A DNA stretch of 18,754 bases, taken from positions 1 to 18,754 of the forward strand of contig JAEZTQ010000053.1 in assembly GCA_023443625.1 (NCBI GenBank), read 5' to 3'. The stretch comes from Bacillota bacterium. GTDB taxonomy: Bacteria; Bacillota_A; Clostridia; Lachnospirales; Lachnospiraceae. Under the pieces are notes generated by a model. It saw nothing but the letters and a program-made list of their open reading frames with translations, was not told the origin of the DNA and made no database searches. Position numbers and translations under genes: made by a program. Of this stretch, positions 2,391 through 18,754 are shown piece by piece; position 1 is the stretch's first letter, and each line of letters opens with the position of its first letter.

Positions 2391-2462
2391 AAAAAGACCT
2401 GAGACGGGGCGGTGAAGTGAACGGCTTTTTTGTTCATTGCCCTATCTAGGTCTGAATTTTTT
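2391..2462. repeat. Terminator-like hairpin repeat, copy A
   Basis: The outer stem AGACCT (2395-2400) pairs with AGGTCT (about 2448-2453), continued by AGA/TCT and GGGC/GCCC, and is flanked by A5 on one side and T6 on the other, so it can act as an intrinsic terminator in both directions. It lies 20 bases after the stop of the GrpB-family gene. The same outer arms, with a shorter loop, recur at 14107-14162 in the same orientation. This copy has an extra inner stem (AGTGAAC/GTTCATT). Confidence 0.75.
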
Positions 2463-2481: not shown

Positions 2482-3072
2482 TTATAAGTTCTTTAACTTA
2501 TATCGTTCTCCATACTGTAATTTTGCTATTTCAGAGTACTTACCAACAAATTCTTCTTTTGCATCCGTATAAGCATCTCTATTATGTTCAAACCTGTCCT
2601 TTAACTGTATCTTAAGTTCAACATATTCCCTTGCAGCCTCTGGATGCTCAATCAAATAATCTCTAAAATATAACTCACTCCAATCATCACCATATCCTAC
2701 GTGGAGATGATATACTTTCTCTTCAAATCCATATTTCGTATAACCTTTATTATAGGTTTGTTTGAAAGTCGGTTTATCTGAATAGCACATCAAACCCCAT
2801 TGCATTGATTGTAATTTATCTGATAATTGGTCAATATCACTTGTATAAGATATTTCCATTAGAATATCTATAGTTGGCTTTGAAACGATACCAGGTACTG
2901 CAGTGCTTCCTATATGACTGATCCTTACAATGGTCCCGTCATCAAATTGCTCTACTAGTTTTTCTCTCTCTATTTCGTACCAGTTTGGATATTCAGGATT
3001 ATATTCCTTCAGTATAATGGGAAACAACTCCCACAGTTCCTCTAAGGTCATTTCTGATAATTCCTTTACCAT
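2482..3072 (-). CDS. GrpB/UPF0157 family nucleotidyltransferase-fold protein
   Basis: A 196-residue protein carrying the family signature HIGSTAVPGIVSKPTIDIL (about residues 53-71), in which GS and the downstream acidic residue correspond to the nucleotidyltransferase active-site loop, plus the HLHVG stretch after it. Length fits the family (about 170-200 aa). Family members are predicted nucleotidyltransferases with poorly known substrates, sometimes fused to dephospho-CoA kinase; an exact reaction cannot be given. The start is supported by AAGGA seven bases before the ATG. It is the last gene of the accessory array and is followed by terminator repeat A. Upstream it abuts an ANT(6) gene fragment. 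Confidence 0.85.
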   Translation of the reverse strand: MVKELSEMTLEELWELFPIILKEYNPEYPNWYEIEREKLVEQFDDGTIVRISHIGSTAVPGIVSKPTIDILMEISYTSDIDQLSDKLQSMQWGLMCYSDKPTFKQTYNKGYTKYGFEEKVYHLHVGYGDDWSELYFRDYLIEHPEAAREYVELKIQLKDRFEHNRDAYTDAKEEFVGKYSEIAKLQYGERYKLKNL

Positions 3073-3140
3073 TATTTATTCCTTCGCATTCCCTTGTATT
3101 TCGTTGTCATATATGGAGCATGTATTTTCTGGTGTGTGGG

Positions 3141-3449
3141 CTAATACATTTTTTTTGCGTTCTTTGGCAATATCTTTACATCTTTTAGATATTGCAAGCT
3201 ATTCCTCGCTTCTATCTCCTTGTATTCAAATTTCATATTATATGCCACTTCTTTTGCTATCGAATCAAACATATCACACATGATAAAAACCGATTTCCAG
3301 ATATCGCTAACGTCTCCTGATGAGTATGTACAAATAAAGGTATCCCATTTTTCTTTCTCCAGATAGTGTTTCATATACTTACCTGACTTGCCAATACTGA
3401 CGCGATAGGATGTTTCATAACCAATCTTCCATCCAAGTATCCGTATTGC
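3141..3449 (-). pseudogene. 3' fragment of an ANT(6)/AadK-like aminoglycoside nucleotidyltransferase
   Basis: An open frame of 102 residues runs from a TAA at 3450-3452 down to the stop at 3141. It begins AIRILGWKIGYETSYRV, includes GKSGKYMKHYL and DVSDIWKSVFIMCDMF, and ends LPKNAKKMY, which is the C-terminal third of ANT(6)-type streptomycin adenylyltransferases. The N-terminal catalytic domain with its DxD motif is absent, so it cannot be an active enzyme. The longest ATG-started part is only 77 codons. The fragment begins about 12 bases after the stop of the HIT gene and in the same reading frame. It is distinct from the longer ANT(6)-like gene at 5194-6102. Confidence 0.85.
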
Positions 3450-3461
3450 TTAGCGCTTGGC

Positions 3462-3920
3462 TTATAACAATTTATTTAATTCTTTTAAAATCTTATCCTT
3501 CAATTCATTAAGTTCTTCATCTGTTGGTCTAGTAGCCTCATCAAACATCTTTTCTTTAGGATACCACCATACCGGTCCTTTTCCATTCATACCATACTCA
3601 TCTAAATCATTCTTTCTTCTCGGGAAAAGGTGCCAGTGCATATGTGCATCACCGTTACCTAACAATTCGTAATTCATCTTTTCAGCACCAGTTGCATTTT
3701 GTACTGCTTCAGCAACAACTGACATTTCTTCCAGAAACTTTACCTTAAATTCTCTATCAAGCATACTCAGTTCTGTTTTATGAATTTTGCATAGGAATAA
3801 CGTATATCCTTTAAACAATTGATTATCTCCGATAACTACATAACCTGTTTCTAATTCCTTAACAAAATACTTATTTGTCCCGTTATTTATCATCGAAATT
3901 CTATCGCATACAAAACACAT
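3462..3920 (-). CDS. HIT-domain nucleotide hydrolase/transferase
   Basis: A 152-residue histidine-triad protein. The catalytic motif HMHWHLF is at about residues 93-99, giving HxHxH; the middle histidine is the nucleophile that attacks the alpha-phosphate of nucleotide conjugates. The N-terminal CFVCDRI resembles the CxxC metal site of many HIT proteins, though its second pair is not evident. Likely substrates are AMP-lysine-type phosphoramidates or dinucleoside polyphosphates; which one cannot be read here. The G-rich ribosome binding site six bases before the ATG lies inside a degenerate piece of an aminoglycoside phosphotransferase gene, and a truncated ANT(6) gene follows its stop. Confidence 0.9.
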   Translation of the reverse strand: MCFVCDRISMINNGTNKYFVKELETGYVVIGDNQLFKGYTLFLCKIHKTELSMLDREFKVKFLEEMSVVAEAVQNATGAEKMNYELLGNGDAHMHWHLFPRRKNDLDEYGMNGKGPVWWYPKEKMFDEATRPTDEELNELKDKILKELNKLL

Positions 3921-4019
3921 TTAATTCCCCCCATTCACTGTTTCAATATAATATTTTTTATCTCCTGACATGCCTTTCTTTATTGGCTTAATATATCCTT
4001 AGCCTGTTCCTCCAGAAAA
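3921..4019 (-). pseudogene. 5' remnant of a second aminoglycoside phosphotransferase-like gene
   Basis: Between the GNAT stop and the HIT start, the minus strand reads GYIKPIKKGMSGDKKYYI followed by ETVNGGN and a stop. This is closely similar to the N-terminus of the intact phosphotransferase gene at 6285-7187 (KIEPITKGISGDQKYYI, then ETVDGK), including at the DNA level (3930-4000 against 7092-7157). A frameshift separates it from an upstream ATG-started piece (MVDFLEEQAKD). Everything after about codon 35 is gone, and the HIT gene takes over exactly at the stop codon, using the glycine codons as its ribosome binding site. Confidence 0.75.
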
Positions 4020-4454
4020 TCAACCATCTAAACAGGATGACTTTGAAACCTCTTCTCTAGCTCTCCCCATATAGAGATTTCCGCCTTCTACAAATCCATA
4101 TTTCCGATAAAAGTCGTGTGCATCGCGAGTAAGCAGAATTCCTCGTAATGAAGATAATTCTTTATTATCATGTATAGCATCCAACATTGCTTTTCCTATT
4201 CCCAAGCCTCGATACTGTTCATCTACAATCACATCACAGATATAATAGGTTGTTGCATAATCTGTAATTACTCGTGAAAATCCTATTTGCTTACCGTCGT
4301 CTTTCAGAAATGCACCGTAGCACAATGAATTATCAATAGATTTCTTTATTATTCCAATATCACGTTTGTCTGCCCAGTAAGTCTGTTCTAGCAGCTTTTT
4401 AATATCATCAATTTGCATTGCTTCTCTTCCAGATTTTATTGAATATAAAAGCAT
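4020..4454 (-). CDS. GNAT family N-acetyltransferase
   Basis: A 144-residue acetyltransferase of the Gcn5 superfamily. Motif A is VIVDEQYRGLGIGKAMLDAI (about residues 75-94), with RGLGIG forming the acetyl-CoA pyrophosphate loop; motif B includes FYRKYGF (about 115-121). The substrate is not predictable. The first ATG is preferred because AGGGA precedes it and the N-terminus (YSIKSGREAM, then TYWADKRD) matches the usual start of this GNAT subgroup. The last 14 residues (EEVSKSSCLDG) look like read-on sequence into the adjacent phosphotransferase remnant rather than a native C-terminus. It lies 30 bases downstream of a histidine phosphatase fragment. Confidence 0.88.
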   Translation of the reverse strand: MLLYSIKSGREAMQIDDIKKLLEQTYWADKRDIGIIKKSIDNSLCYGAFLKDDGKQIGFSRVITDYATTYYICDVIVDEQYRGLGIGKAMLDAIHDNKELSSLRGILLTRDAHDFYRKYGFVEGGNLYMGRAREEVSKSSCLDG

Positions 4455-4484
4455 TTATTTCATTCCCTTCTATCAAACATGTCT

Positions 4485-4850
4485 TTACAAGATTTTAGCT
4501 CTGTCTAATACATCAGTTTCTTCAATATGTACCAATTCATCTCCCTGAAATGTAAATTTTACAATCCAAGGCATTACGTTTTGTATCTTCTGAAAATCAT
4601 CAAGACCAAATGTTGGCTTAAAATAATTTATAATGGTGCTTAAAGCTGTTCCATGACTACCAATTACAATATTTTTATTCCGGTATTCTTTCAAAATCTG
4701 CATTAGTGCATCAACATTACGAACTTGGACTTCATGTAAACATTCACCATCCGAAAGCTTATAATCGAAATCACTCCATTGTTGCTCTGTAAATCGATTA
4801 AAATCTTCTATCCAAACACTGTGGAGGGCATGGATATCCGTATCTATTAT
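4485..4850 (-). pseudogene. N-terminally truncated histidine phosphatase (phosphoglycerate mutase-like)
   Basis: A 121-codon open frame starts directly after the TGA of the pyrophosphatase-like gene and in its frame. It reads SVWIEDFNRFTEQQWSDF, KLSDGECLHEVQVRN, NIVIGSHGTALSTIINYF and ends DVLDRAKIL. The SHG motif is the second catalytic histidine of the branch; the essential N-terminal RHG motif with the phosphorylated histidine is missing. An internal ATG gives a 72-residue ORF, but no ribosome binding site supports it. It is best seen as the 3' two thirds of a gene cut when the upstream gene arrived. Confidence 0.85.
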
Positions 4851-5201
4851 TCATTTCTTTTCCCGTCTTATTAAAATACCTTTCATATGCTCTGATTCAT
4901 TATGGGTTTTATAAACTATTTCCTTTTCTTCTTCTGTACATCCAATCAAAATCTTAATTTCTGAATCTCGTTTCATCAAATCAACGGTACATATGATTGC
5001 ATCAATTCTCTTTCTTTTATCCATTCCAACCCATACATCGATTCCTGCTCCATCCATAGAGGTAGTATTTTTTAGGAAGCCATAATCCACTTTATAAATT
5101 AAATCCGGGCATCTCGGATGAGCAGTCCCTTTTGGCCTGTCTATTACTATTTCAGATTGCTTTACTAAATTATCTAATGCTGTCCAAAACTCATTATTCA
5201 T
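4851..5201 (-). CDS. Small inorganic pyrophosphatase-like protein
   Basis: A 116-residue protein beginning MNNEFWTALDNLVKQSEIV, with RPKGTAHPRCPDLIYKVDYG, SMDGAGIDVWVG, ICTVDLMKRDSEIKILIGC and NESEHMKGILIRR. It resembles short clostridial proteins annotated as inorganic pyrophosphatase; the Y-x-VDYG and D-G-x-G-IDVW stretches are reminiscent of the soluble pyrophosphatase active site, though it is much shorter than classical PpaA. The start at 5201 is chosen over an upstream in-frame ATG because GGAGGG lies six bases before it. It overlaps the end of the ANT(6)-like gene by eight bases, so the two were translationally coupled. A beheaded phosphatase frame follows its stop. Confidence 0.7.
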   Translation of the reverse strand: MNNEFWTALDNLVKQSEIVIDRPKGTAHPRCPDLIYKVDYGFLKNTTSMDGAGIDVWVGMDKRKRIDAIICTVDLMKRDSEIKILIGCTEEEKEIVYKTHNESEHMKGILIRREKK

Positions 5202-6102
5202 TTTTTCCCTCCGCATTTTTATAATTAGATGATGCATAAAACTCTTTCATATTCAATTTCCTCTGCGACAAAAATTCCCTTACCCTTTTTGTCTCTTCTT
5301 TGTCACAGATATAATTAAAATGTTTCGCAACCTCCGATTCCAGTTCTTCGAAATAATCATACATAAGAAAAAGCTTATCCCATATATCTTCATAATCTCC
5401 ATTTGGAAAAATACCTTGTACTCGTTTCATTTCTTCTTCTGTAAGATACCTTTTTAAGTACTAGCTATGCCCTCCACTTGTTACCTTAAAATCATAGCGT
5501 ATACCAATTTTCCAATTTAGCATTTTTATGAACATTTCCATAATAAGAACATCAAAACTGTATTTGGCATAATAGAATTCTTCTCTACATAATCCCTTCG
5601 ATATGTAAATAGACAGCCATCGAAATTCATTGCTAATGTTATAGAACTCCATCTCTGCTGGTGGCTTTATATAAAATGCGTTTTCACTCTCAATTGGTAT
5701 CAGCTCTTTATAGTTGTCTTTGTTCAACAGAATGATTCTTGGCTCATCCCTATCTTTTTCCTTATCTATATTGCATATATCTACAATCGACAGGTCAATT
5801 CGATTACCGTCTGCAAATTGAATTAGATATGCAAATGTATTTTTACTGCTATAGTCATACGGGTGCGAATACCAATCCATTGGATATTGAACAATCAATA
5901 TATCTCCAAAACACTTAACCCAACTCTTATCTTTTGTAAATTCACGTACATCTCTGACAAAATAGACAATATCAAAGTCACTATATTGGTCATGAACAGC
6001 ATTTCTATTAGCTTTTGAACCATCCATGGCAACAGCACGAATTCTATCATCCTTAATTGCCTTGCTCATAATTAAATCCATCATCTCTGCTTCTGTACGC
6101 AT
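5194..6102 (-). pseudogene. ANT(6)/AadK-like aminoglycoside nucleotidyltransferase interrupted by one amber codon
   Basis: Two ORFs of 213 and 78 residues belong to one continuous frame of 302 codons broken only by TAG at 5461-5463. The first half has the nucleotidyltransferase core: RIRAVAMDGSKANRN, DQYSDFDIVYFV with its DxD metal ligands, and DGNRIDLSIV. After the amber the frame continues YLKRYLTEEEMKR and DYEDIWDKLFLMYDYF, the expected C-terminal domain. Relatives have GK at this point, so AAG to TAG is the likely change. ANT(6) enzymes adenylylate streptomycin. Without suppression only a 213-residue product lacking the C-terminal domain is made. GAGGTGA precedes the ATG. It overlaps the pyrophosphatase-like gene. 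Confidence 0.88.
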
Positions 6103-6284
6103 AAATTATTCACCTCAATAGAACTTAGTAATCCTTTTCACCGTTATCTTCTATGCATCTATGCAATTATCATTTTACGCTCTTTAAATATCACATTTTT
6201 AAGTTCGTATTTGTCTGCTAACTTTAGTTGTAGTCTCATAACAGAACGCTAATTTAAATTCTGATTTCTGGTCCAAAAATAATC

Positions 6285-7187
6285 TTACTCAGTAAAATCC
6301 TTAAAATACCATGTTGGAAGAGGATTTTTCATTTCATCAAACCAATGAAGTATGTCTGTATTCATTTTTATAATAGAAGGTAGTTCATCCGGAGCAAAAT
6401 ATTTTGCCCACACTATGGAAGTTATGGCGCTTGCTGAAAGGTAATACATTAATAGTTTCCAAAACTTTTCTGGTACTTCATTGTTGAAATAACCATTAAT
6501 CTGCCCTGAAGCAAACTCCCCGCACTCAATACCGATACGATTGAACTCATACCATGGGTCTCCATAATTATCAAAATCAACAGTATGCCAATCAATAATC
6601 GATAAATGTCCAGATGCTGTTAATATCATATTGCCCATATGGTAATCTCCGTGATGACGGCACTGTGGACGGTTGTCTAATAATTCTCTATTCCTTTCAA
6701 GATAATCCAAAATAATGGTATCTCCGGGAAAAGGAACACCTTCGGAGTGAAATGCTTCTATGCGAGGATTTATAACAGAGTAGTATCGCTCAGACCAGTC
6801 AGGAACAACATCTCTTGCCTGAACTGTATGTATCTTTCTAAGAATTTCACCTGATTCTAAACCCATATGATATTGTTCTTTCGGCGATAGCGTAGATAAG
6901 ATAGATTCCACTTCAACTCCCTCAATCCAACTCAGCAGCGTGTACACAGATTTCCCATTTTCACAAATACCAAAATCAATAGGGGAAGGCATGGGCACAT
7001 TACGTGCAACCATTTCTTTCATAGCCTCAAACTCAGTCTTTTTCTGTGAATACTCAGAAGAATCTGCAATACGGAGTAATAGATGTTTCCCATCGACTGT
7101 TTCAATATAATATTTTTGATCTCCTGAAATGCCTTTTGTAATTGGCTCAATCTTAGCAAATGTGTCATATGTGGGAATATCTTTCAT
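6285..7187 (-). CDS. Aminoglycoside phosphotransferase (APH)-family kinase
   Basis: A 300-residue protein-kinase-fold phosphotransferase. Visible parts: the N-lobe glycine region KGISGDQKYYI (about 18-28), the lysine-equivalent segment HLLLRIA, the catalytic loop HHGDYHMGNMI (about 178-188, Asp181 as base and Asn186 as Mg ligand) and the metal-binding IIDWHTVDFDNYGDPWYEF (about 197-215). Family members phosphorylate aminoglycosides, macrolides, choline, homoserine or sugars; the substrate is not clear, so resistance should not be assumed. The ATG is preceded by AGAGGAATG. After its stop an in-frame tail (ending FKERKMIIA) looks like a further gene scrap. A near copy of its 5' end lies at 3921-4000. 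Confidence 0.88.
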   Translation of the reverse strand: MKDIPTYDTFAKIEPITKGISGDQKYYIETVDGKHLLLRIADSSEYSQKKTEFEAMKEMVARNVPMPSPIDFGICENGKSVYTLLSWIEGVEVESILSTLSPKEQYHMGLESGEILRKIHTVQARDVVPDWSERYYSVINPRIEAFHSEGVPFPGDTIILDYLERNRELLDNRPQCRHHGDYHMGNMILTASGHLSIIDWHTVDFDNYGDPWYEFNRIGIECGEFASGQINGYFNNEVPEKFWKLLMYYLSASAITSIVWAKYFAPDELPSIIKMNTDILHWFDEMKNPLPTWYFKDFTE

Positions 7188-7309
7188 AGTTCCATTCCTC
7201 TCATTATTTTTCTATACAAACTATATGTATCATCATTCAAAATGAAAGTTAATTTATTCAAAATTCCAGATAAATTCGAGTTAATACTTTATACAAGAGG
7301 AATAACGAT

Positions 7310-7900
7310 TTATGACAACATATTAGCTAGTTGGATAAAATCGGTAACAGTATTGCCTTCAAATTGAATATTTCTACTATTGAACAAAACTGTATTCATG
7401 CCAACTTTCCTTGCCGCTTCCAGATTACCCTCTCTGTCATCTACATATAAACAATCTTCTGGCTTACAACCCAATTGTTCTATTGTAAGCTGGAAGATAC
7501 CCTCATCTGGCTTTTGAATTTTCAAATCACCACTAATGCTAATCACATCAAAGTATTTATTTATATCAAACTTCTCTCGAAGATATTTACTCCATCGGCT
7601 GGAATCATTTGATATAATAGCCATCTTGTAGTGTTTGCTTATAGAGGATGCAAAATCAAGTAAACCATCATTTATTTCTATCGTATCTAAATACTCTTTT
7701 TCAATTTTCACTAAATCGCCTTTAAAGCCAAGACTTTCCCACACCTCTAAGGAGGTTAATTCTCCCACATCAGCTTTGAACCAGGGAGTGTATATTTCTT
7801 CTGGCTTTAGATTAGGAAATGTCCGTTGAATATATGGTACAAAGTCATCTCCCGTTTGTTTTACTATTACACCATACATATCTAAGATTATAGCTTTCAA
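7310..7900 (-). CDS. HAD-superfamily hydrolase, subfamily IA
   Basis: A 196-residue HAD hydrolase. Motif I is IILDMYGVIV (Asp7 nucleophile; Tyr in place of the usual second Asp, as in the DxYG variants), motif II is AIISNDSSRW, motif III includes the lysine of KIQKPDEGIF, and motif IV is LYVDDREGNLEAARKVGM. The helical cap lies between motifs I and II. It probably dephosphorylates a small metabolite; the tyrosine also occurs in haloacid dehalogenases, so the exact chemistry is open. The start codon is TTG, supported by GGAAAGGA ten bases upstream; the next ATG would remove the nucleophile. Confidence 0.88.
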   Translation of the reverse strand: MKAIILDMYGVIVKQTGDDFVPYIQRTFPNLKPEEIYTPWFKADVGELTSLEVWESLGFKGDLVKIEKEYLDTIEINDGLLDFASSISKHYKMAIISNDSSRWSKYLREKFDINKYFDVISISGDLKIQKPDEGIFQLTIEQLGCKPEDCLYVDDREGNLEAARKVGMNTVLFNSRNIQFEGNTVTDFIQLANMLS

Positions 7901-7939
7901 AATTATGTATCCTTTCCAGCAAACTTTGACTTGTCTGCC

Positions 7940-8035
7940 TTATCCACTATTATTGGATTTATAGTTCTTCAATTTATTCTCATAATCTCCGAAAAACTTA
8001 TTTACTTGCCAACAATTTCTTGGCTGAGGTATTCA
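7940..8035 (-). pseudogene. Short 3' gene fragment after the metallo-beta-lactamase stop
   Basis: Immediately after the TGA of the metallo-beta-lactamase gene a second in-frame TGA is followed by 30 sense codons: IPQPRNCWQVNKFF, then GDYENKLKNYKSNNSG and a stop. The composition (aromatic, Lys/Asn-rich tail) looks like the C-terminus of a real protein rather than random intergenic DNA, but I cannot name the family. Its position repeats the pattern seen after the HIT and pyrophosphatase-like genes. Confidence 0.4.
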
Positions 8036-8848
8036 TCATAACTCTATAACCAAACCTGTGGATAATTGTTGAACCATCTCTCCTAACTCTTCCTGTAAGA
8101 TATCAAATGACCGTTTTCCAGTGCAATGCCCAGTATAAACAACCTCTATTCCTGTCATTTTAATTCTTTTTGCAAGCTCTTTAACTTCCGCTTTTGATTT
8201 ATTGAAAATATGAAAACCACCCACTAAAGCTTTGATTTTCTTATCAGGATAGGTCGCAGCAACTTCATTAATAATATTATCCGCTCCACCATGTGAACAG
8301 CTGTTAAAAATAACAAGACCTGAGGATGTATCAAAAACAAGACTTTGCTCGTGAGAAAAATCATCCGGTTTCCAACCTTTTTCATTACGTATGTACATCA
8401 TGTTCTTCTTACCTATTTCGGATAGTTCTTCTGTTTTATGTGGGATAAGCATTACCTCAGGGAACAAAGTATAATCACCCTTACAATAAACAATGCGCTC
8501 CCTATATTCATCCAGAATATTCTTTGGAATGCCAATATACTTACGGATAAACCATTTTTTCATATAACAGTTTTCGTCACAACCGTCCCGTAGATAAAAC
8601 TTTGCCTTATCATTTGTCTCAAAAAAATTCTTCATACCATCTGCATGGTCATAATGTGCATGAGACAAAACAGCATAATCAATATCTTGAATGTTTAAAC
8701 CAAGTTTTTCTGCATTTCTTAAAAACAGTCCTGAAGCACCTGTGTCAAGCAATATATGCTCATTGTTATACTCTATATATATACATAATCCCCATTCACC
8801 AGCTATATTTTCCTTCGAAATATTATCTACCAATACCGTAGCTTTCAT
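8036..8848 (-). CDS. Metallo-beta-lactamase-fold hydrolase (DHPMR-phosphate synthase-like)
   Basis: A 270-residue MBL-fold protein. The metal-binding motif is LSHAHYDHADG (His63, His65, Asp67, His68); further ligands are suggested by NSCSHGGADNI, GGFHIF and YTGHCTGKR near the C-terminus. The N-terminal VLVDN followed by IEYNNEHILLDTGASG is typical of the group annotated as 7,8-dihydropterin-6-methyl-4-(beta-D-ribofuranosyl)-aminobenzene-5'-phosphate synthase, an archaeal pterin enzyme; in clostridia the real substrate is unknown. AGGGAGA six bases before the ATG supports the start. A 7-bp dyad lies about 95 bases upstream of the start. Confidence 0.88.
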   Translation of the reverse strand: MKATVLVDNISKENIAGEWGLCIYIEYNNEHILLDTGASGLFLRNAEKLGLNIQDIDYAVLSHAHYDHADGMKNFFETNDKAKFYLRDGCDENCYMKKWFIRKYIGIPKNILDEYRERIVYCKGDYTLFPEVMLIPHKTEELSEIGKKNMMYIRNEKGWKPDDFSHEQSLVFDTSSGLVIFNSCSHGGADNIINEVAATYPDKKIKALVGGFHIFNKSKAEVKELAKRIKMTGIEVVYTGHCTGKRSFDILQEELGEMVQQLSTGLVIEL

Positions 8849-8941
8849 TAAGATTCTCCCTTTTTGTTATTCAATAAGCTTCTGTCTTCTGTTAAATAAT
8901 GTCATGTTTGCTGATTGAATGTACTTAATTCAATCTCTTAC

Positions 8942-8957
8942 ATTAGGTACACCTAAT
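8942..8957. promoter_or_regulatory. Perfect dyad, possible operator
   Basis: ATTAGGT and ACCTAAT are perfect inverted arms separated by AC. It sits between the DUF3781 stop and the metallo-beta-lactamase gene, about 95 bases upstream of the latter's ATG. No T-tract follows, so it is not a terminator. A dimeric repressor or activator site is possible; no regulator gene is adjacent and no clear promoter was found beside it. Confidence 0.3.
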
Positions 8958-8969
8958 CTCTCTTCCTCA

Positions 8970-9254
8970 TTATTCACCTGATATTGGTTTTCGCAGCTTA
9001 TGGGCTGTAATAATTGTTAAGCTATGGGCATTTATCGTTATTTCACAACTATTTATATTAACATACCAATTCTTCCCTCTCTTTGTTATAGAAGAATTTG
9101 TATCTTGTATCATATCTCTGCACGCTTGAACCACATCGATCTCTTCCAATGAAAGATTTCTTTTAATTCGTTCTATCCCTAATTTGGTTGTATGCAGCTT
9201 ATTTAAGTTTAAAATCAATTCACTCTTATTCATATCATTTATTCTTGCTTCCAT
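8970..9254 (-). CDS. DUF3781 family protein
   Basis: A 94-residue protein with the family pattern: NKSELILNLNKLHTTKLGI, then ERIKRNLSLE, a mid part CRDMIQDTNSSITKRGKNWYV and the beta-rich end CEITINAHSLTIITAHKLR. The length fits DUF3781, a small clostridial family of unknown function. The extra C-terminal residues PISGE may be read-on sequence. The ribosome binding site is weak (AGG 11 bases before the ATG, with AAGGA further away). It stands alone between a P-loop kinase fragment and the metallo-beta-lactamase gene. Confidence 0.75.
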   Translation of the reverse strand: MEARINDMNKSELILNLNKLHTTKLGIERIKRNLSLEEIDVVQACRDMIQDTNSSITKRGKNWYVNINSCEITINAHSLTIITAHKLRKPISGE

Positions 9255-9334
9255 ATATTAACCTATATTCCTTCTTGTTAATCTTTGTAGGGCCCCAAAG
9301 CATGTATTATATATCCTCGTTCATGACACGGACA

Positions 9335-9392
9335 ATAGTCGTTGGTCGTCAAAAATAGTTATCGGTATCCAAATGAGTATATCCTTATTCAT
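9335..9392 (-). pseudogene. Short fragment of a P-loop kinase gene
   Basis: The minus strand encodes GYTHLDTDNYF, stop, RPT, closely matching GYTHMDTDDYFWQPT of the intact kinase at 11933-12478; the tryptophan codon TGG has become TGA. The DNA matches 12356-12405 at most positions over about 48 bases. The P-loop before and the rest of the gene after are missing. It sits in the 185-base gap after the Nudix gene; nothing else is recognisable there. Confidence 0.7.
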
Positions 9393-9439
9393 AGTTGATT
9401 TTCCATATTAATGCTTCTATTCAGTCCCCTAATAATTGT

Positions 9440-9895
9440 TTATTTACCAACAGATAATTCAGTTATATCTGTATATGAAAACGGATTCTTCCGAAAAGAA
9501 TTACAGTATACTTTTGAATTATTAGCAATCATGTTAGAAAATCTTGATATGTATAAAGGATGGGCTATCATCTTCTTAGCATCATCTACAGAAAACCATC
9601 CTACTTCTACACTTTCATCACTTGTTGAAAGTTCACCTGATTCAAAAGTACATTTAAAGTCTATATTGACAATATCATTTTCAATATTTTTATATATTCC
9701 GATTATTCCATTTATGGTAACTTTAATGCCACTTTCCTCTATAATTTCACGAACTAATGCTTCCTGTAAACTTTCGCCCGATTCAACCATGCCTCCTGGA
9801 AACTCCCACCCCCTCCATGGACTTTTTACAAGCAGCACCTCTTTATCATTATTTGTTACAAATCCTCCGACTGCCACAAAATGATTTTTCTCCAT
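9440..9895 (-). CDS. Nudix hydrolase
   Basis: A 151-residue Nudix protein. The Nudix box is complete at about residues 35-57: G-x5-E-x7-REIIEESGI, with the EE pair binding the Mg or Mn that activates water. The preceding SPWRGWEFPGG fixes the fold. It cleaves a nucleoside diphosphate linked to another group; candidates are oxidised nucleotides or NDP-sugars, not distinguishable here. The start at ATG 9895 is preferred because AGAGG lies about six bases upstream; the longer frame begins at TTG 9925 without a ribosome binding site. It is followed by a kinase gene fragment. Confidence 0.9.
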   Translation of the reverse strand: MEKNHFVAVGGFVTNNDKEVLLVKSPWRGWEFPGGMVESGESLQEALVREIIEESGIKVTINGIIGIYKNIENDIVNIDFKCTFESGELSTSDESVEVGWFSVDDAKKMIAHPLYISRFSNMIANNSKVYCNSFRKNPFSYTDITELSVGK

Positions 9896-10016
9896 ACATA
9901 ACCTCTTTTCTAATCCGAAACACAATTTATTTCAAGTTGCCATTCCATAATTTCATCATTACTCAGTCTCCGTTTATGCTTTATTCCTCACTAAATTATT
10001 TTCTGTTTCCTTATTT

Positions 10017-10361
10017 TTATAGTGAATTACCACAATTAATGTCAAATGGAGCAATCAATAATTTTTGAACATCCTTCAAATAGGTTTCAAAGAACCATTT
10101 TGTTGCTTTGCCATAATTCTCTTTGTTATCAAACTCCCAAAAAGAGTAATATTTAACGCATTTGACAATCTTAGTTAATTCTCTTGGAGCTTCGCCGAGT
10201 TCGACACCATCAATAGTATAGAAACGTTTCATATATTTGATTGTTATACATCCTTGTTGTTTCATTTGTTCTTTCCATATGATATCTGCAATGGTTTCAA
10301 ACTGTTCCAGTTTCTCTGGCTTTACTTGAAAAAGTTTAATTTCAGAAAAAGCTTTTTGCAT
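10017..10361 (-). CDS. Conserved protein, possibly a dimeric alpha/beta-barrel
   Basis: A 114-residue soluble protein: EIKLFQVKPEKLEQFE, then KEQMKQQGCITIKYMKRFY, KIVKCVKYYSFWEFDNKENY and KATKWFFETYLKDVQKLL. The beta-alpha-beta pattern, with a strand-initial segment, a 'collect and resist' helix and a closing YYSFWEF strand, resembles ferredoxin-like dimeric barrels such as antibiotic biosynthesis monooxygenases. I cannot assign an activity. GGGGAGA lies about seven bases before the ATG, and a promoter candidate lies 107 bases upstream. Confidence 0.65.
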   Translation of the reverse strand: MQKAFSEIKLFQVKPEKLEQFETIADIIWKEQMKQQGCITIKYMKRFYTIDGVELGEAPRELTKIVKCVKYYSFWEFDNKENYGKATKWFFETYLKDVQKLLIAPFDINCGNSL

Positions 10362-10467
10362 AAGAATTTCTCCCCATCAATATAATCTGCACATCAGATT
10401 TTCTATAATAACTATAACATTACCGTGTGTCTTAAGTTACTTAATTGGATTGTAAACCCATGGCAAT

Positions 10468-10497
10468 ATTATACAACTAATGTTGTTTTAAGCACAA
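10468..10497 (-). promoter_or_regulatory. Candidate promoter for the 114-residue protein
   Basis: On the minus strand TTGTGC (10492-10497) and a perfect TATAAT (10468-10473) are 18 bases apart; the leader to the ATG at 10361 is about 100 bases. The -35 region overlaps a small dyad (ACAACTAATGTTGT). The rest of the 10362-10620 gap contains an 18-codon scrap ending EALRFNRQ just after the MBL gene stop and no supported gene. Confidence 0.45.
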
Positions 10498-10620
10498 CTT
10501 ATTTATATTCTTGAATATATTCCTATCCCTTTTCTGCGATGGTTTTAAGAAATGATTATTGTCTATTAAATCTTAATGCCTCCAGTCTTTTCCCTTTTTG
10601 TAGCATTTCAACGAAATACA

Positions 10621-11466
10621 CTAATAATTGATTTCCAAACCATCATATGCAAATTCAATTCCGTCTAATTGATTATGTAGATTCATATAATCATCATAGG
10701 ATTTTCCCCAATCCTCTTCTAAATGAGTAACAATCACTCTCTTAATATGATATTTGTTTTTCAGTTCTACAATTTCATCCAATACAAATAACTCATCTCG
10801 TAGCGGATTATCTTTCTCAAGCACGAAACCGTCCTTCAATATATCTCCAACAATTGTGTTACCAATAATCAGACAATCTGCATCCATGAAAACATCATTT
10901 TCAGGAAACGGTTTTACATCACATGGGGCATAAATCACCTTATGAGAACCCTCAATAAAAACGAAAACAGTTATACTTCCCGTTTCGTCAACCTGTATTA
11001 ATTCTATATGGATGGAACTACAGTCCAGACTCGTATATGCCTGAATATTAATTAAATTCATACTTTCATAATAATCCAGTGCGGAGCCATATTTTGTCCC
11101 CTGTGATTTTAAATCTTTAATAATTGATGGTAACGAAGCTACTGTTATTGAATTCTTACATGCTAATCCAACGGATTTGGCCAACCAGTCTAACCTCAAT
11201 TGTTCGATTACCCGCATACCCATGGTATGGTCTGGGTCTATGTGACTGTATAGAATATACTCTACATTCTTGATATCTGCATTATTCAATGCATAGGAAA
11301 CATCTTCTGGCGTATCAATCAATATACCAGCATCCTCAACATATAAACTACAACCACACCTTGCGTATGGAAAGCCTTTTTTCCTTGCTTCAGTACAAAC
11401 ATTACACTGGCATAATGGTTTAGGTATACTGACACAGCCTCCAGAACCAATAATCTTTAATTTCAT
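10621..11466 (-). CDS. PhnP-like metallo-beta-lactamase-fold phosphodiesterase
   Basis: A 281-residue MBL-fold protein. It opens with MKLKIIGSGGCVSIPKPLC and a cysteine cluster CQCNVC, as in PhnP-type proteins where such cysteines bind a structural zinc. The catalytic metal motif is YSHIDPDHTMGM (His75, Asp77, Asp79, His80), followed by late features IYAPCDVK and IVTHLEEDWG. PhnP cleaves phosphoribosyl cyclic phosphate in phosphonate use, but no phn genes are near, so a generic cyclic phosphodiesterase or hydrolase is safer. The start at 11466 is preferred over a longer frame (11523) because GAGGAG lies eight bases before it. Confidence 0.85.
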   Translation of the reverse strand: MKLKIIGSGGCVSIPKPLCQCNVCTEARKKGFPYARCGCSLYVEDAGILIDTPEDVSYALNNADIKNVEYILYSHIDPDHTMGMRVIEQLRLDWLAKSVGLACKNSITVASLPSIIKDLKSQGTKYGSALDYYESMNLINIQAYTSLDCSSIHIELIQVDETGSITVFVFIEGSHKVIYAPCDVKPFPENDVFMDADCLIIGNTIVGDILKDGFVLEKDNPLRDELFVLDEIVELKNKYHIKRVIVTHLEEDWGKSYDDYMNLHNQLDGIEFAYDGLEINY

Positions 11467-11523
11467 AATCATACTCCTCTTTCTACTCTGATTTATATGA
11501 ATCACTTGAGTCCATACCAGCAA

Positions 11524-11872
11524 CTATGCTCCCACCGATAATATTCGAATCGCCAGCTCTACTTCCTCCTCTGTTAATCCGACTGTAGAATCCGTGCTAA
11601 TCTTATATTTTGTTATGTCATTATATAAATCTAAATCGTCCATATAAGAAAGGATTCCACCTCCCTATGTTCATCCAACCATGCAATAACTTCCATCACT
11701 TGAATTAAGCTGAATTTCTTTGTCTTTTTAAGCTCATCATCTGATAAATCTGGAGTTTTGTCATATATTGATATATATACTTGTTGAATAGTTCACTGAT
11801 CTTTTCTGCTTCTTTTCGAACCGGCAGTATTTCCGGTACCACTATCCAATCAAAATACTTCCGTAAAACATC
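11524..11872 (-). pseudogene. Degenerate coding remnants in a 409-base gap
   Basis: From 11872 the minus strand reads KYFDWIVVPEILPVRKEAEK, then ISELFNKYIYQ. A frame change near 11765 restores a long frame: TPDLSDDELKKTKKFSLIQV, then MEVIAWLDEHREVESFL, stopping at 11631. Overlapping it, ATG 11643 opens a 39-codon ORF (YNDITKYKISTDSTVGLTEE, then EVELAIRILSVGA) ending at 11524, with GGGAGG rather far upstream. The helical, acidic sequences look like genuine protein but I do not recognise the family. The first piece lies in the frame of the kinase stop at 11933. I read it as one frameshifted gene plus a possible small ORF. Confidence 0.45.
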
Positions 11873-11932
11873 TTATCTTAATCTAATCCCACATAACACT
11901 TTATTTGTATTAATCCCAGTATACATATGACA

Positions 11933-12478
11933 CTATTTCAACAAATCCATAGAATGCTTAAGTAATTTCAAGTTAATTTCAACTGGTTTAACACCATCAA
12001 GCATTACCTGCTCACATCGAAGTAGCTTAGACCAATTATCATGCATTGCTTTACTCCTCATATTTTCATCCCCATCATCATATTCTTTTGCCCATTTGAT
12101 AAATGATAAATGCTCTTCATACATATCGCCATGCTCACGTATTCTATTGCCAAATCGCCCATATTCTCTTGCTTCTAATCTATTGATGCGAATTTCCATT
12201 GGTGTAACTATTCTGATAGCCAAGTTGAAAAATGGGATGAAAACATCTCCCCAACCACACAAAGAACCTGATATCACTACTTTTTCGTTTACATCCAAAT
12301 CCTTTTTCATTAAAGCAATTCTCTCACTCAATTCTCTCTTTGCAATAAATGGTGGATTCGTTGGCTGCCAAAAATAGTCATCTGTATCCATATGAGTATA
12401 TCCATATTTTAAAGATATTGCTTTCCCGAGAGTTGTTGTTCCAGCCCCCGAAGCCCCATATATATGTATTACCTTCAT
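11933..12478 (-). CDS. P-loop NTPase, small-molecule kinase-like
   Basis: A 181-residue P-loop protein. The Walker A motif is IYGASGAGTTTLGKAI (about residues 6-21), followed by the substrate-site-like HMDTDDYFWQPTNPPF (29-44) and an acceptor/lid region MEIRINRLEAREYGRFGNRI rich in arginines, as in adenylate/shikimate-kinase-like AAA_17/18 proteins. The substrate is unknown. The start at 12478 is chosen because AGGAGA lies seven bases upstream; the longer ATG lies within that ribosome binding site. A fragment of a related gene lies at 9335-9392, so this family has been acquired at least twice here. Confidence 0.82.
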   Translation of the reverse strand: MKVIHIYGASGAGTTTLGKAISLKYGYTHMDTDDYFWQPTNPPFIAKRELSERIALMKKDLDVNEKVVISGSLCGWGDVFIPFFNLAIRIVTPMEIRINRLEAREYGRFGNRIREHGDMYEEHLSFIKWAKEYDDGDENMRSKAMHDNWSKLLRCEQVMLDGVKPVEINLKLLKHSMDLLK

Positions 12479-12594
12479 CTTTTCTCTCCTCATTCGATAT
12501 TCATTTCAAATGAAAATGTCTCAATACAGTCGGATACTCATTGCTCTATTTTACTATTTGCCATTAAGATTTTTGCAGATTATTTACAAGGCTA

Positions 12595-13302
12595 CTATTT
12601 CTTTAAAATTAAATGATGAAAAAATGCTATATTTCGAAATTCCATAATCTGAGCAACTCTTAATTCAATCTCTACCATTTTCTCTTGCCAACCTACATCT
12701 TTATGAATGTCTTGGTTTTGTTGTAAATCCCAAAACGTTCTAATTCCAAATGTTTCACATACTTTAAATTTCTCACACCAATCTGTCAAATCAGAATCTT
12801 CATAATAATGAATTGTCCCATAATTAGATGCTGTCCCATCCTTACCATCTAATAGCATATGAGCTTTTTCAAAATTATTTAGCAGAACCACCATTTGCAT
12901 AACTCGTCCTTGCCTATTATGCTTAATAATCGAAAGCATCCCTTCTGGTTTCAATAGCCGGTAAAATTCATTTACAATTTCTTCTCGACCATCAGCGTAT
13001 TCCAAAACATTATGACAAAGAACAATATCAAAAGTTTCATTTTCTAGTTTCTTTAGTATGTCAATACTCCCAACAATCTGTTGGTACTCATAATCGCAGT
13101 ATCTATCTTTTACTGTCTCTTCTGATGGTTCAATAGCAACTACCTCATTATCCTGTGCAAAATAATTTGCAGTAAATCCAGTACCACTACCAAAATCTAA
13201 AATCCTTTTTCCTTTTATGTTACCCAATTGCGTGAGTGAAATTTTTTTAAGAAGTGCTTCCCAAGGTTGCAACTTATCTATATTATGAATATGCATTTTC
13301 AT
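12595..13302 (-). CDS. Class I SAM-dependent methyltransferase
   Basis: A 235-residue methyltransferase. Motif I is RILDFGSGTGFTANYF (about residues 33-48), binding S-adenosylmethionine; the acidic end of strand 2 is VVAIEPSEE, and motif IV is FDIVLCHNVLEYADGREEIV, followed by LLKPEGMLSII. The C-terminal part (HYYEDSDLTDWCEKF and FGIRTFWDLQQ) resembles small-molecule or tRNA-wobble-type (CmoA/SmtA-like) methyltransferases; the acceptor is unknown. The start at 13302 is supported by GGAG six bases upstream; the longer frame would begin with TTG inside that site. A broken methyltransferase lies just upstream. Confidence 0.88.
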   Translation of the reverse strand: MKMHIHNIDKLQPWEALLKKISLTQLGNIKGKRILDFGSGTGFTANYFAQDNEVVAIEPSEETVKDRYCDYEYQQIVGSIDILKKLENETFDIVLCHNVLEYADGREEIVNEFYRLLKPEGMLSIIKHNRQGRVMQMVVLLNNFEKAHMLLDGKDGTASNYGTIHYYEDSDLTDWCEKFKVCETFGIRTFWDLQQNQDIHKDVGWQEKMVEIELRVAQIMEFRNIAFFHHLILKK

Positions 13303-13388
13303 CATTTTCTCCAAATTCTACTTTTCATTTAGTTTACGTTCAAGAAAGCATGTCAAGTTAATAATCGTATTATACTTTTTATGAATAA

Positions 13389-13711
13389 TCATTTTTTGCA
13401 TCTCAAGTTATACATAACTCCCATAGCTCCAACTTTAGCAATAGTTCTATTTGTTTCTTCTATTTCAAAATAATTCTTAGTCATATCCTCAAATTCCAGA
13501 TGCAGTATATCAAATTTATTAGGCTGTCGCATATATTCTTCAATGCTCATCATCACTCGGCCAGTTGGACTTTCGGTGTTTGAAATATTAAGTACGAATT
13601 TTCCGTTAGTTTTATTATATGGTGGGCTTCTTTAATTGTTTTTTTACAAATTTCAAAATACTCAAACACCCCAATACATGCATCTAGAGCTTTTACCTTT
13701 TTGAAATCCAT
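13389..13711 (-). pseudogene. Truncated and frameshifted SAM methyltransferase remnant
   Basis: The frame from 13711 reads KALDACIGVFEYFEICKKTI and KEAHHIIK, which is the motif IV to post-motif region of class I methyltransferases. A one-base shift near 13600 moves the continuation NGKFVLNISNTESPTGR, RVMMSIEEYMRQPNKFDILH and IAKVGAMGVMYNLRCKK to another frame, ending at the TGA at 13389. The SAM-binding motif I is absent, and no ribosome binding site precedes the ATG. It is therefore a 5'-truncated, frameshifted relic. The final part does not look like a standard methyltransferase end and could come from another gene. Confidence 0.7.
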
Positions 13712-13804
13712 ATTTTACTAAAGGTTCAATACTTTAATATCTTGATAATTATTTCCATTTTACACCACATTCTTAATGAGTTCTACTATTAATTGCAGAC
13801 ATTT

Positions 13805-13848
13805 TTAAAAAACCTGTCATGAAAATAAGAGATCCTTAACATGACAGG
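13805..13848 (-). terminator. Intrinsic terminator, minus strand
   Basis: A perfect 9-bp stem CCTGTCATG/CATGACAGG with an 18-base loop is followed on the minus strand by TTTTTT. It ends any transcript reading through from the recR side before it reaches the accessory array. Confidence 0.75.
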
Positions 13849-14104
13849 CTAGCGTAATGATACTACTATCAAACCTGTTCCAGTATTAATTTGTTTTTGG
13901 CTTCATCCTCTGAAATCTTATGGTATCCAAAATACATCTTGCATTATCAATGATTCAGCATCAGTATCCTCAATAGACAAAACTACAATTGGGAAAAGAC
14001 CTGAGAAGCTTGAGAACATGGATGTTTTCTGGGATTCTACTTTTATTTTTTATGGATTTTTCTGTGTTGAATTTTTAGAAGCATTGCGTGGTCTGTGATT
14101 GAAA
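13849..14104. other. Non-coding gap with a possible gene scrap and a partial terminator repeat
   Basis: No supportable gene. On the minus strand two short pieces in different frames, VVLSIEDTDAESLIMQDVFW and YHKISEDEAKNKLILEQV (stop at 13869), may be the frameshifted end of a lost gene. At 13994-14006 AAAAGACCTGAGA repeats the left arm of the terminator repeats at 2391 and 14107, giving a partial third copy. Confidence 0.35.
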
Positions 14105-14106
14105 AG

Positions 14107-14162
14107 GCAAAAAAACAGACCTGAGACAGGGCGGTTTAATGCCTTATCTAGGTCTGAATTTT
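14107..14162. repeat. Terminator-like hairpin repeat, copy B
   Basis: CAGACCT (14116-14122) pairs with AGGTCTG (14150-14156), extended by AGA/TCT and GGC/GCC, flanked by A7 and T5. It can terminate in both directions and is the natural terminator of recR, which ends about 110 bases away. It shares its outer arms and GAGAC(A/G)GGGCGG core with copy A at 2391-2462, in the same orientation; the inner part is shorter here. Confidence 0.75.
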
Positions 14163-14269
14163 TAGATGCTTTCCCATGATTTTCTATTTTATTTTCTACT
14201 GTCGACAAGAATAATCTCGGTTACCTTTTGGATATTGAGGTTTACCTGGCGATACTATTTCCATCATCC

Positions 14270-14866
14270 TTACAGCTCCACTCTTCCTTCAAAGGCTCTT
14301 AGTAGTGTAACCTCATCTATATATTCCAGGTCTCCTCCCACTGGGATTCCGCTGGCTATCCTGCTCACCTTAATCCCTGCAGGCTTGATTAGTTTACTAA
14401 GGTACATAGCGGTAGCCTCACCCTCAAGACTGGAATTAGTTGCAATAATCACTTCGTCTACATCCCCCTGAAGGCGCAGCATAAGCTCCTTGAGTTTAAT
14501 ATCAGCGGGTCCAATGCCAAGCATAGGGGAGATTGCTCCATGAAGAACGTGGTAGACTCCATCAAATTTACCGGTCTTTTCATAAGCCGCCAAATCTCTG
14601 GGGTTCTCCACCACCATAATTTGTTGTTTATTTCTACTTGGAGAGGAACAGATAGGGCAAAGCTCTTTATCTGTAAGAGTTAAGCACTCCTCACAATACT
14701 TGATATTTTTCTTTGCCTCCACGATAGATTCTGACAGAGCAGACACCTGCTCTATGGGCATATTTATTATATGGAATGCCAGTCTCTGTGCTGTCTTTGC
14801 CCCTATTCCGGGAAGTCTTGACAATTCCTCTATTAACTTACTGATCTGTCTGCTGTAATAATCCAT
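14270..14866 (-). CDS. recR: Recombination protein RecR
   Basis: A full-length 198-residue RecR. The helix-hairpin-helix [19 protein letters not shown] lies at about residues 15-33, the zinc finger uses Cys58, Cys61, Cys70 and Cys73 ([16 protein letters not shown]), and the Toprim domain (from VVENPRDL to [19 protein letters not shown]) covers about 83-155. RecR forms a ring that, with RecO and RecF, loads RecA on SSB-coated gaps during recombinational repair. It follows ybaB in the conserved dnaX-ybaB-recR order, but a 346-base gap with strong hairpins separates it from ybaB, so it may be separately regulated. GAGGTAAAGGA precedes the ATG. Confidence 0.98.
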
Positions 14867-18628: not shown

Positions 18629-18754
18629 GATTGCGTTTAGTTAGCTTAGGATTTTAATGGGTAGAATTACCCTTTGATGATAAACTTAGACTTATTTATC
18701 ATCATTATAATCATTTCTAAATTATTTTCAACTCCTTATTCCTCTTTTTCTTTT
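18629..18754 (-). repeat. Right copy of 126-bp inverted terminal repeat
   Basis: It is the reverse complement of 2-127 with one mismatch and runs exactly to the window end. It contains the same two dyads and the same inward-facing TTGAAA-16-TATAAT, here pointing toward the HD-GYP gene. Unique sequence starts at 18628. Confidence 0.9.

Follow-up and report, generated by a model that had tools for sequence, protein, structure and literature searches.

A row of small accessory genes after recR in a Lachnospiraceae genome, probably the content of a gene-turnover hotspot

Results and Discussion

Thirteen intact small genes, with relics of others in several of the gaps, lie between the DNA-repair gene recR and another operon in the contig analysed here (18,754 nucleotides, hereafter the window). 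We think that this array is probably the content of a gene-turnover hotspot after recR, which small accessory genes enter singly or in short blocks and from which they are lost by deletion that leaves relics behind. It looks like an ordinary hotspot of this type rather than a new cassette-capture system.

The setting and the intact genes of the array

Read along the minus strand, the window encodes a response regulator with an HD domain, dnaX, ybaB, recR, the row of small genes, a lipoprotein-like gene, a sigma factor and a membrane protein. The names dnaX, ybaB, recR, lipoprotein and membrane protein were given by eye; that of RecR is backed by a sequence search, in which the best match found was 92% identical and came from two Herbinix MAGs (Lachnospiraceae). 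In a RecR tree the window groups firmly with genomes G001 and G002 (100/99), the sole firm grouping among the loci discussed here. The window covers the recR side of the interval and ends short of its far edge. Ahead of the lipoprotein-like gene, at 2200-2263, there is a short N-terminal remnant resembling an ABC transporter ATPase (by eye). The core gene and the intact genes of the array are as follows.

14270..14866, minus strand: recR, core gene at the near edge (ORF list; RecR match as above)
12595..13314, minus strand: methyltransferase (Pfam)
11933..12493, minus strand: P-loop kinase (AAA_18, below cut-off; Pfam, NCBIfam; DNA match in G172)
10621..11523, minus strand: MBL-fold protein 2 (Pfam)
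10017..10361, minus strand: 114-aa protein without Pfam match (DNA match in G302)
9440..9925, minus strand: Nudix (Pfam)
8970..9254, minus strand: DUF3781 (Pfam)
8036..8848, minus strand: MBL-fold protein 1, MBL1 (Pfam; DNA match in G302)
7310..7900, minus strand: HAD (Pfam; DNA match in G390)
6285..7187, minus strand: APH (Pfam)
4851..5237, minus strand: pyrophosphatase-like (InPase, below cut-off; Pfam)
4020..4454, minus strand: GNAT (Pfam)
3462..3920, minus strand: HIT (Pfam)
2482..3072, minus strand: GrpB (Pfam)

Each of the 13 intact ORFs is encoded on the minus strand. The first-pass annotation, made from the letters of the window, had described about thirteen small enzymes of different families reading in one direction; this description stands except for its ANT(6) gene, which is broken by an in-frame stop. 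GrpB, HIT, GNAT, APH, HAD, both MBL proteins, DUF3781, Nudix and one methyltransferase score above the Pfam cut-offs, and the pyrophosphatase-like protein and the kinase below them. Against NCBIfam PRK06217 the kinase reaches 198.7 bits, just under the 203-bit cut-off. The 114-aa ORF has no match in the Pfam scan, and 4 of 120 listed relatives of its product carry PF03992. The ANT(6) piece and APH both stay under the NCBIfam cut-offs for resistance, and resistance is thus a matter of family resemblance only. PADLOC, run on 10 array proteins, matched only MBL1 and the methyltransferase, both weakly.

Gene relics in the gaps

Several gaps hold remains of further genes, found by Pfam, by ORF inspection and by comparing the window with itself.

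13315..14108, minus strand: no intact gene in this gap; its open pieces lack Pfam matches (ORF check, Pfam)
11524..11932, minus strand: gap with a 26-nt methyltransferase-like match at 11824-11849 (self-comparison)
9339..9389, minus strand: kinase relic, 51 nt, 86% to 12358-12408 (window self-comparison)
5194..6102, minus strand: ANT(6), interrupted by an in-frame stop (Pfam, ORF check)
4488..4850, minus strand: histidine phosphatase, C-terminal part (94-184 of 194; Pfam)
3930..3992, minus strand: APH relic, 63 nt, 87% to 7089-7151 (window self-comparison)
3144..3449, minus strand: second ANT(6), C-terminal relic (190-279 of 279; Pfam)

The two pieces of the interrupted ANT(6) match positions 1-208 and 223-278 of Adenyl_transf. 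It had been claimed that most gaps hold fragments of genes from similar families, and the relics of a second ANT(6), a histidine phosphatase, APH and the kinase bear this out for several gaps; the methyltransferase relic is based on one 26-nt match of 81%, and Pfam finds nothing in the two larger open pieces at 13392-13714.

The interval after recR varies among relatives

The distance from recR to a conserved gene for a 369-aa protein is 77 bp in G129, 234 bp in G267, 7,500 bp in G347 and 9,682 bp in G101. In G129 and G267 the 369-aa gene is followed by a DUF1256 gene (identified by Pfam in G129 and by tblastn in the other genomes), and in G101 and G347 a DUF5050 gene and other genes lie between recR and the 369-aa gene, the filling of G101 also including Nudix, LUD and two GNAT genes. 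DUF1256 relatives are found downstream of recR in G166 and G146 as well, with two and one intervening ORFs of at least 90 aa, respectively; G172, G302 and G252 have other genes after recR and no DUF1256 match within the stretch examined. Among the nearest relatives, recR is followed by the DUF5050 gene on one contig of G001 (C266), by a GntR/UTRA pair on another (C220, whose recR is 78% identical to that of the window at the DNA level) and by a gene for a 241-aa protein in G002. With stretches that are short in some relatives and differently filled in others, the post-recR interval varies in this group. Two filled borders that we compared have at most 13 identical bases in common. In G347 a piece resembling the reverse transcriptase of a group II intron (by eye; L218:10658-11164) lies between ybaB and recR.

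Relatives of the array genes have other neighbours

The array DNA has matches at E 1e-20 or better in 58 of 397 family genomes. Four of these were compared in detail: MBL1 (82% DNA identity), the 114-aa gene (88%), the kinase (85%) and HAD (75%). On the upstream side each match begins 19 to 52 bases ahead of the start codon; on the downstream side it ends at the stop codon for MBL1, 2 bases past it for the 114-aa gene, and 22 and 59 bases inside the gene for the kinase and HAD, respectively. Since homology extends over one gene plus 19 to 52 upstream bases and the flanks are unrelated, these genes appear to have separate histories, in agreement with the separate origin supposed in the first-pass annotation. 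Selection on coding DNA could also explain match edges that fall near gene edges.

At the protein level (E 1e-6) relatives of two array proteins occurred together in none of 103 loci, of which 80 lie at recR in other genomes, 20 surround MBL1 relatives and 3 are others. The 20 MBL1 regions were taken from a search of 299 genomes with a match in 50, and no region held a relative of a second array protein. A stable gene order across relatives, named earlier as a point that would speak against the cassette reading, was absent from the loci searched. In 5 of 20 loci from the DNA search (L199, L204, L207, L210, L212) two or three of the array proteins have relatives within 20 kb of one another, and some genes may therefore travel together. 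The kinase of G172 adjoins a DUF5050 gene, and it is a DUF5050 gene that directly follows recR in G001, G101 and G347. With part of the array as query, phages gave no match and plasmids only three, weak and confined to single genes; the kinase matched 13 plasmid records, every one under 60% identity. Relatives of the 114-aa protein and of the kinase were absent from viral contigs.

Direction, density and composition compared with other loci

The single direction of the array genes is unremarkable here: 943 of 1259 neighbouring ORF pairs are co-oriented in 78 loci, some of them overlapping, and a run of at least 13 same-strand genes occurs in 12 of the 78. The coding fraction of the array is 75% against a median of 88% for the loci, and its G+C content is 33.7% against 38.5% from recR to the first gene.

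The mix of small-enzyme families, on the other hand, does look special. GNAT (PF00583) accounts for 11 of 77 neighbour ORFs of array-gene relatives (14 loci; 2 of 79 case ORFs were removed for length) and for at most 1 of 79 control ORFs (p 0.002 if 1), the 25 commonest families being listed; the control ORFs were taken near recR in other genomes and include 10 phosphofructokinases, so the control set is not independent. A comparable one-strand row is found in G302 (L200), with four GNAT genes, members of the 2'-5' RNA ligase and adenosine deaminase families and a HAD protein, which matches profile positions 1-135 of 178.

No integron-like signature at the junctions

In integron cassette arrays small single genes stand in a row with a common direction, and the recR array shares this layout. 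The first-pass annotation had considered an unknown acquisition route for detoxification-type genes possible at this site, to be checked by looking for a short sequence or RNA fold that recurs at the junctions and for a dedicated recombinase elsewhere. The junctions give no sign of a dedicated cassette-type route. In 14 gaps, on one strand, the numbers of words of 7, 8, 9, 10, 11 and 12 bases shared by at least three gaps were 92, 12, 2, 1, 0 and 0, values reached by 58, 78, 54, 21, 100 and 100 of 100 shuffles, respectively. Folding of 13 gaps on both strands (a 794-nt and a 30-nt gap were omitted) gave z values of -2.05 to 0.8. A scan of the gaps for attC-like sites found one palindrome, counted on both strands, against a mean of 0.375 and a maximum of 2 in 40 shuffles. 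None of the 299 family genomes sampled, which do not include the window's own, has an IntI (TIGR02249) match above cut-off; tyrosine-recombinase matches below the cut-off occurred in 295 family genomes and in 14 of 14 control genomes. The Pfam scan of the 20 ORFs in the window, which is part of the interval, detected no integrase, recombinase, relaxase, phage or conjugation gene. The earlier remark that no attC-like site, integrase or transposase is visible holds. Rfam gave two matches on the window, both under the family cut-offs and neither on the hairpin element described below.

What survives of the cassette-like acquisition site is thus the separate histories of the genes and the absence of integron or transposon parts; the cassette route itself does not, and the post-recR interval fits an ordinary hotspot. 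A search of the literature, by titles and the starts of abstracts, did not find a description of such an array; PMC11706625, in the part available to us, deals with a different island type.

A terminator-like hairpin at both ends of the array

A hairpin that the first-pass annotation had not reported is present at both ends of the array, after recR and beyond GrpB.

14109..14234, minus strand: terminator-like element, 126 nt, conserved block and hairpin with T-run (fold z -3.3)
2392..2461, minus strand: second hairpin copy, without upstream block, 90% over 30 nt (fold z -4.4; 40.4 bits)

The element also follows recR on two contigs of G001 and in G101 and G347. In G001, G101 and G166 it lies behind degV-like genes (by eye), and G001, G101 and G129 carry it elsewhere too. 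It is low in copy number, the loci carrying it being L102, L117, L118, L218 and L219. Near recR in G129 and G267, the two genomes with a short interval, there is no copy as judged by model R1 on G129 and by the hairpin pattern on both. Across 397 genomes the pattern matched 5 times, in 4 genomes, and a reversed control 3 times, in 3 genomes, which makes the pattern weak when used alone; all 5 of the 5 real matches have the upstream block. It found no match in viral contigs. R1, applied to six genomes, had matches in three and none in G002, G006 and G113; of the 8 strong copies that it found in the sense direction, 6 had served to train it. The simplest reading is that the element is a terminator family; the hairpin might also play a role in insertion. 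In G129 (L118, around position 9942) the element follows two large DUF262-like genes, possibly a defence locus (by eye).

How the genes may have arrived, and rival readings

On the explanation that we favour, the hotspot would be the interval that in relatives extends from recR to the conserved 369-aa and DUF1256 genes. Small accessory genes would come in one at a time or as short blocks, perhaps by recombination in flanking core DNA, perhaps as the cargo carried by a mobile element that later lost its integration genes. Illegitimate deletion would trim them, loss by deletion being suggested by the relics, and their common direction would reflect the habit of the surrounding genome. PMC5635113, in the part available to us, describes horizontal-transfer hotspots that lack recognisable mobile elements and proposes that DNA enters them by recombination in flanking core genes. 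Those hotspots occupy intervals beside core genes, as the array does beside recR, vary in content, as the recR interval does among relatives, and show no integrase, as is the case for the part of the interval in the window; unlike the recR interval, which we compared across related genera and on the recR side, they are defined within clades of sequenced genomes.

The main rival holds that the array is the cargo of an ICE, IME or prophage inserted after recR that has since lost its integrase and transfer genes. It owes its rank to two Lachnospiraceae loci in which small-enzyme genes of the same kinds have a serine-recombinase-like gene (L210) or a relaxase-like gene (L212) nearby, both named by eye. 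We nevertheless regard it as unlikely: neither a recombinase nor a relaxase adjoins the array in the window, its 20 scanned ORFs include no phage gene, part-array queries met nothing in phages and only the three weak plasmid matches, and the two filled borders share so few bases. An integron-like system with attachment sites of an unfamiliar type and a recombinase elsewhere in the genome would account for single genes in one direction that have different neighbours elsewhere. Words, folds and attC-like sites that do not exceed shuffles, the lack of IntI above cut-off in the sampled genomes and the relics within the gaps set the array apart from integrons and make such a system very improbable. 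We find it scarcely credible that the row forms a single operon serving a common detoxification function: its genes are co-oriented and several families are detoxification-like, but the families are unrelated, some members are broken, and the gene order is not conserved in the loci searched.

The hotspot explanation does not account for the hairpin at both ends. In Herbinix-like bacteria the low-copy element, as found at recR and degV-like genes, might be a landing site: incoming DNA with a hairpin copy would recombine with the copy after recR, and genes would gather between two copies with no recombinase encoded nearby. Two copies of the element flank different genes in G001, where 1.6 kb separates them, and in G101, where the distance is 4.7 kb; together with the two ends of the array and the short intervals of G129 and G267 that lack a copy near recR, these pairs are what such a route would predict. 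Several observations run against it and leave it improbable in our view: the second copy in the window has another loop as well as no upstream block, only one copy turned up beside recR in G101 and in G347, the degV-like copy of G001 lies between convergent genes without an island, and a terminator family is the simpler explanation of the copies.

In this group, then, a one-strand row of small enzymes calls for caution against a cassette reading, as such runs are common and relics point to plain gain and loss. The interval from recR to the 369-aa and DUF1256 genes can now be named as a place for a strain-by-strain study of turnover, with the repeated terminator-like element as a candidate boundary. 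Both ends of the contig itself carry a 126-nt inverted repeat (99%; 2-127 and 18629-18754), which looks like an assembly ending in a repeat.
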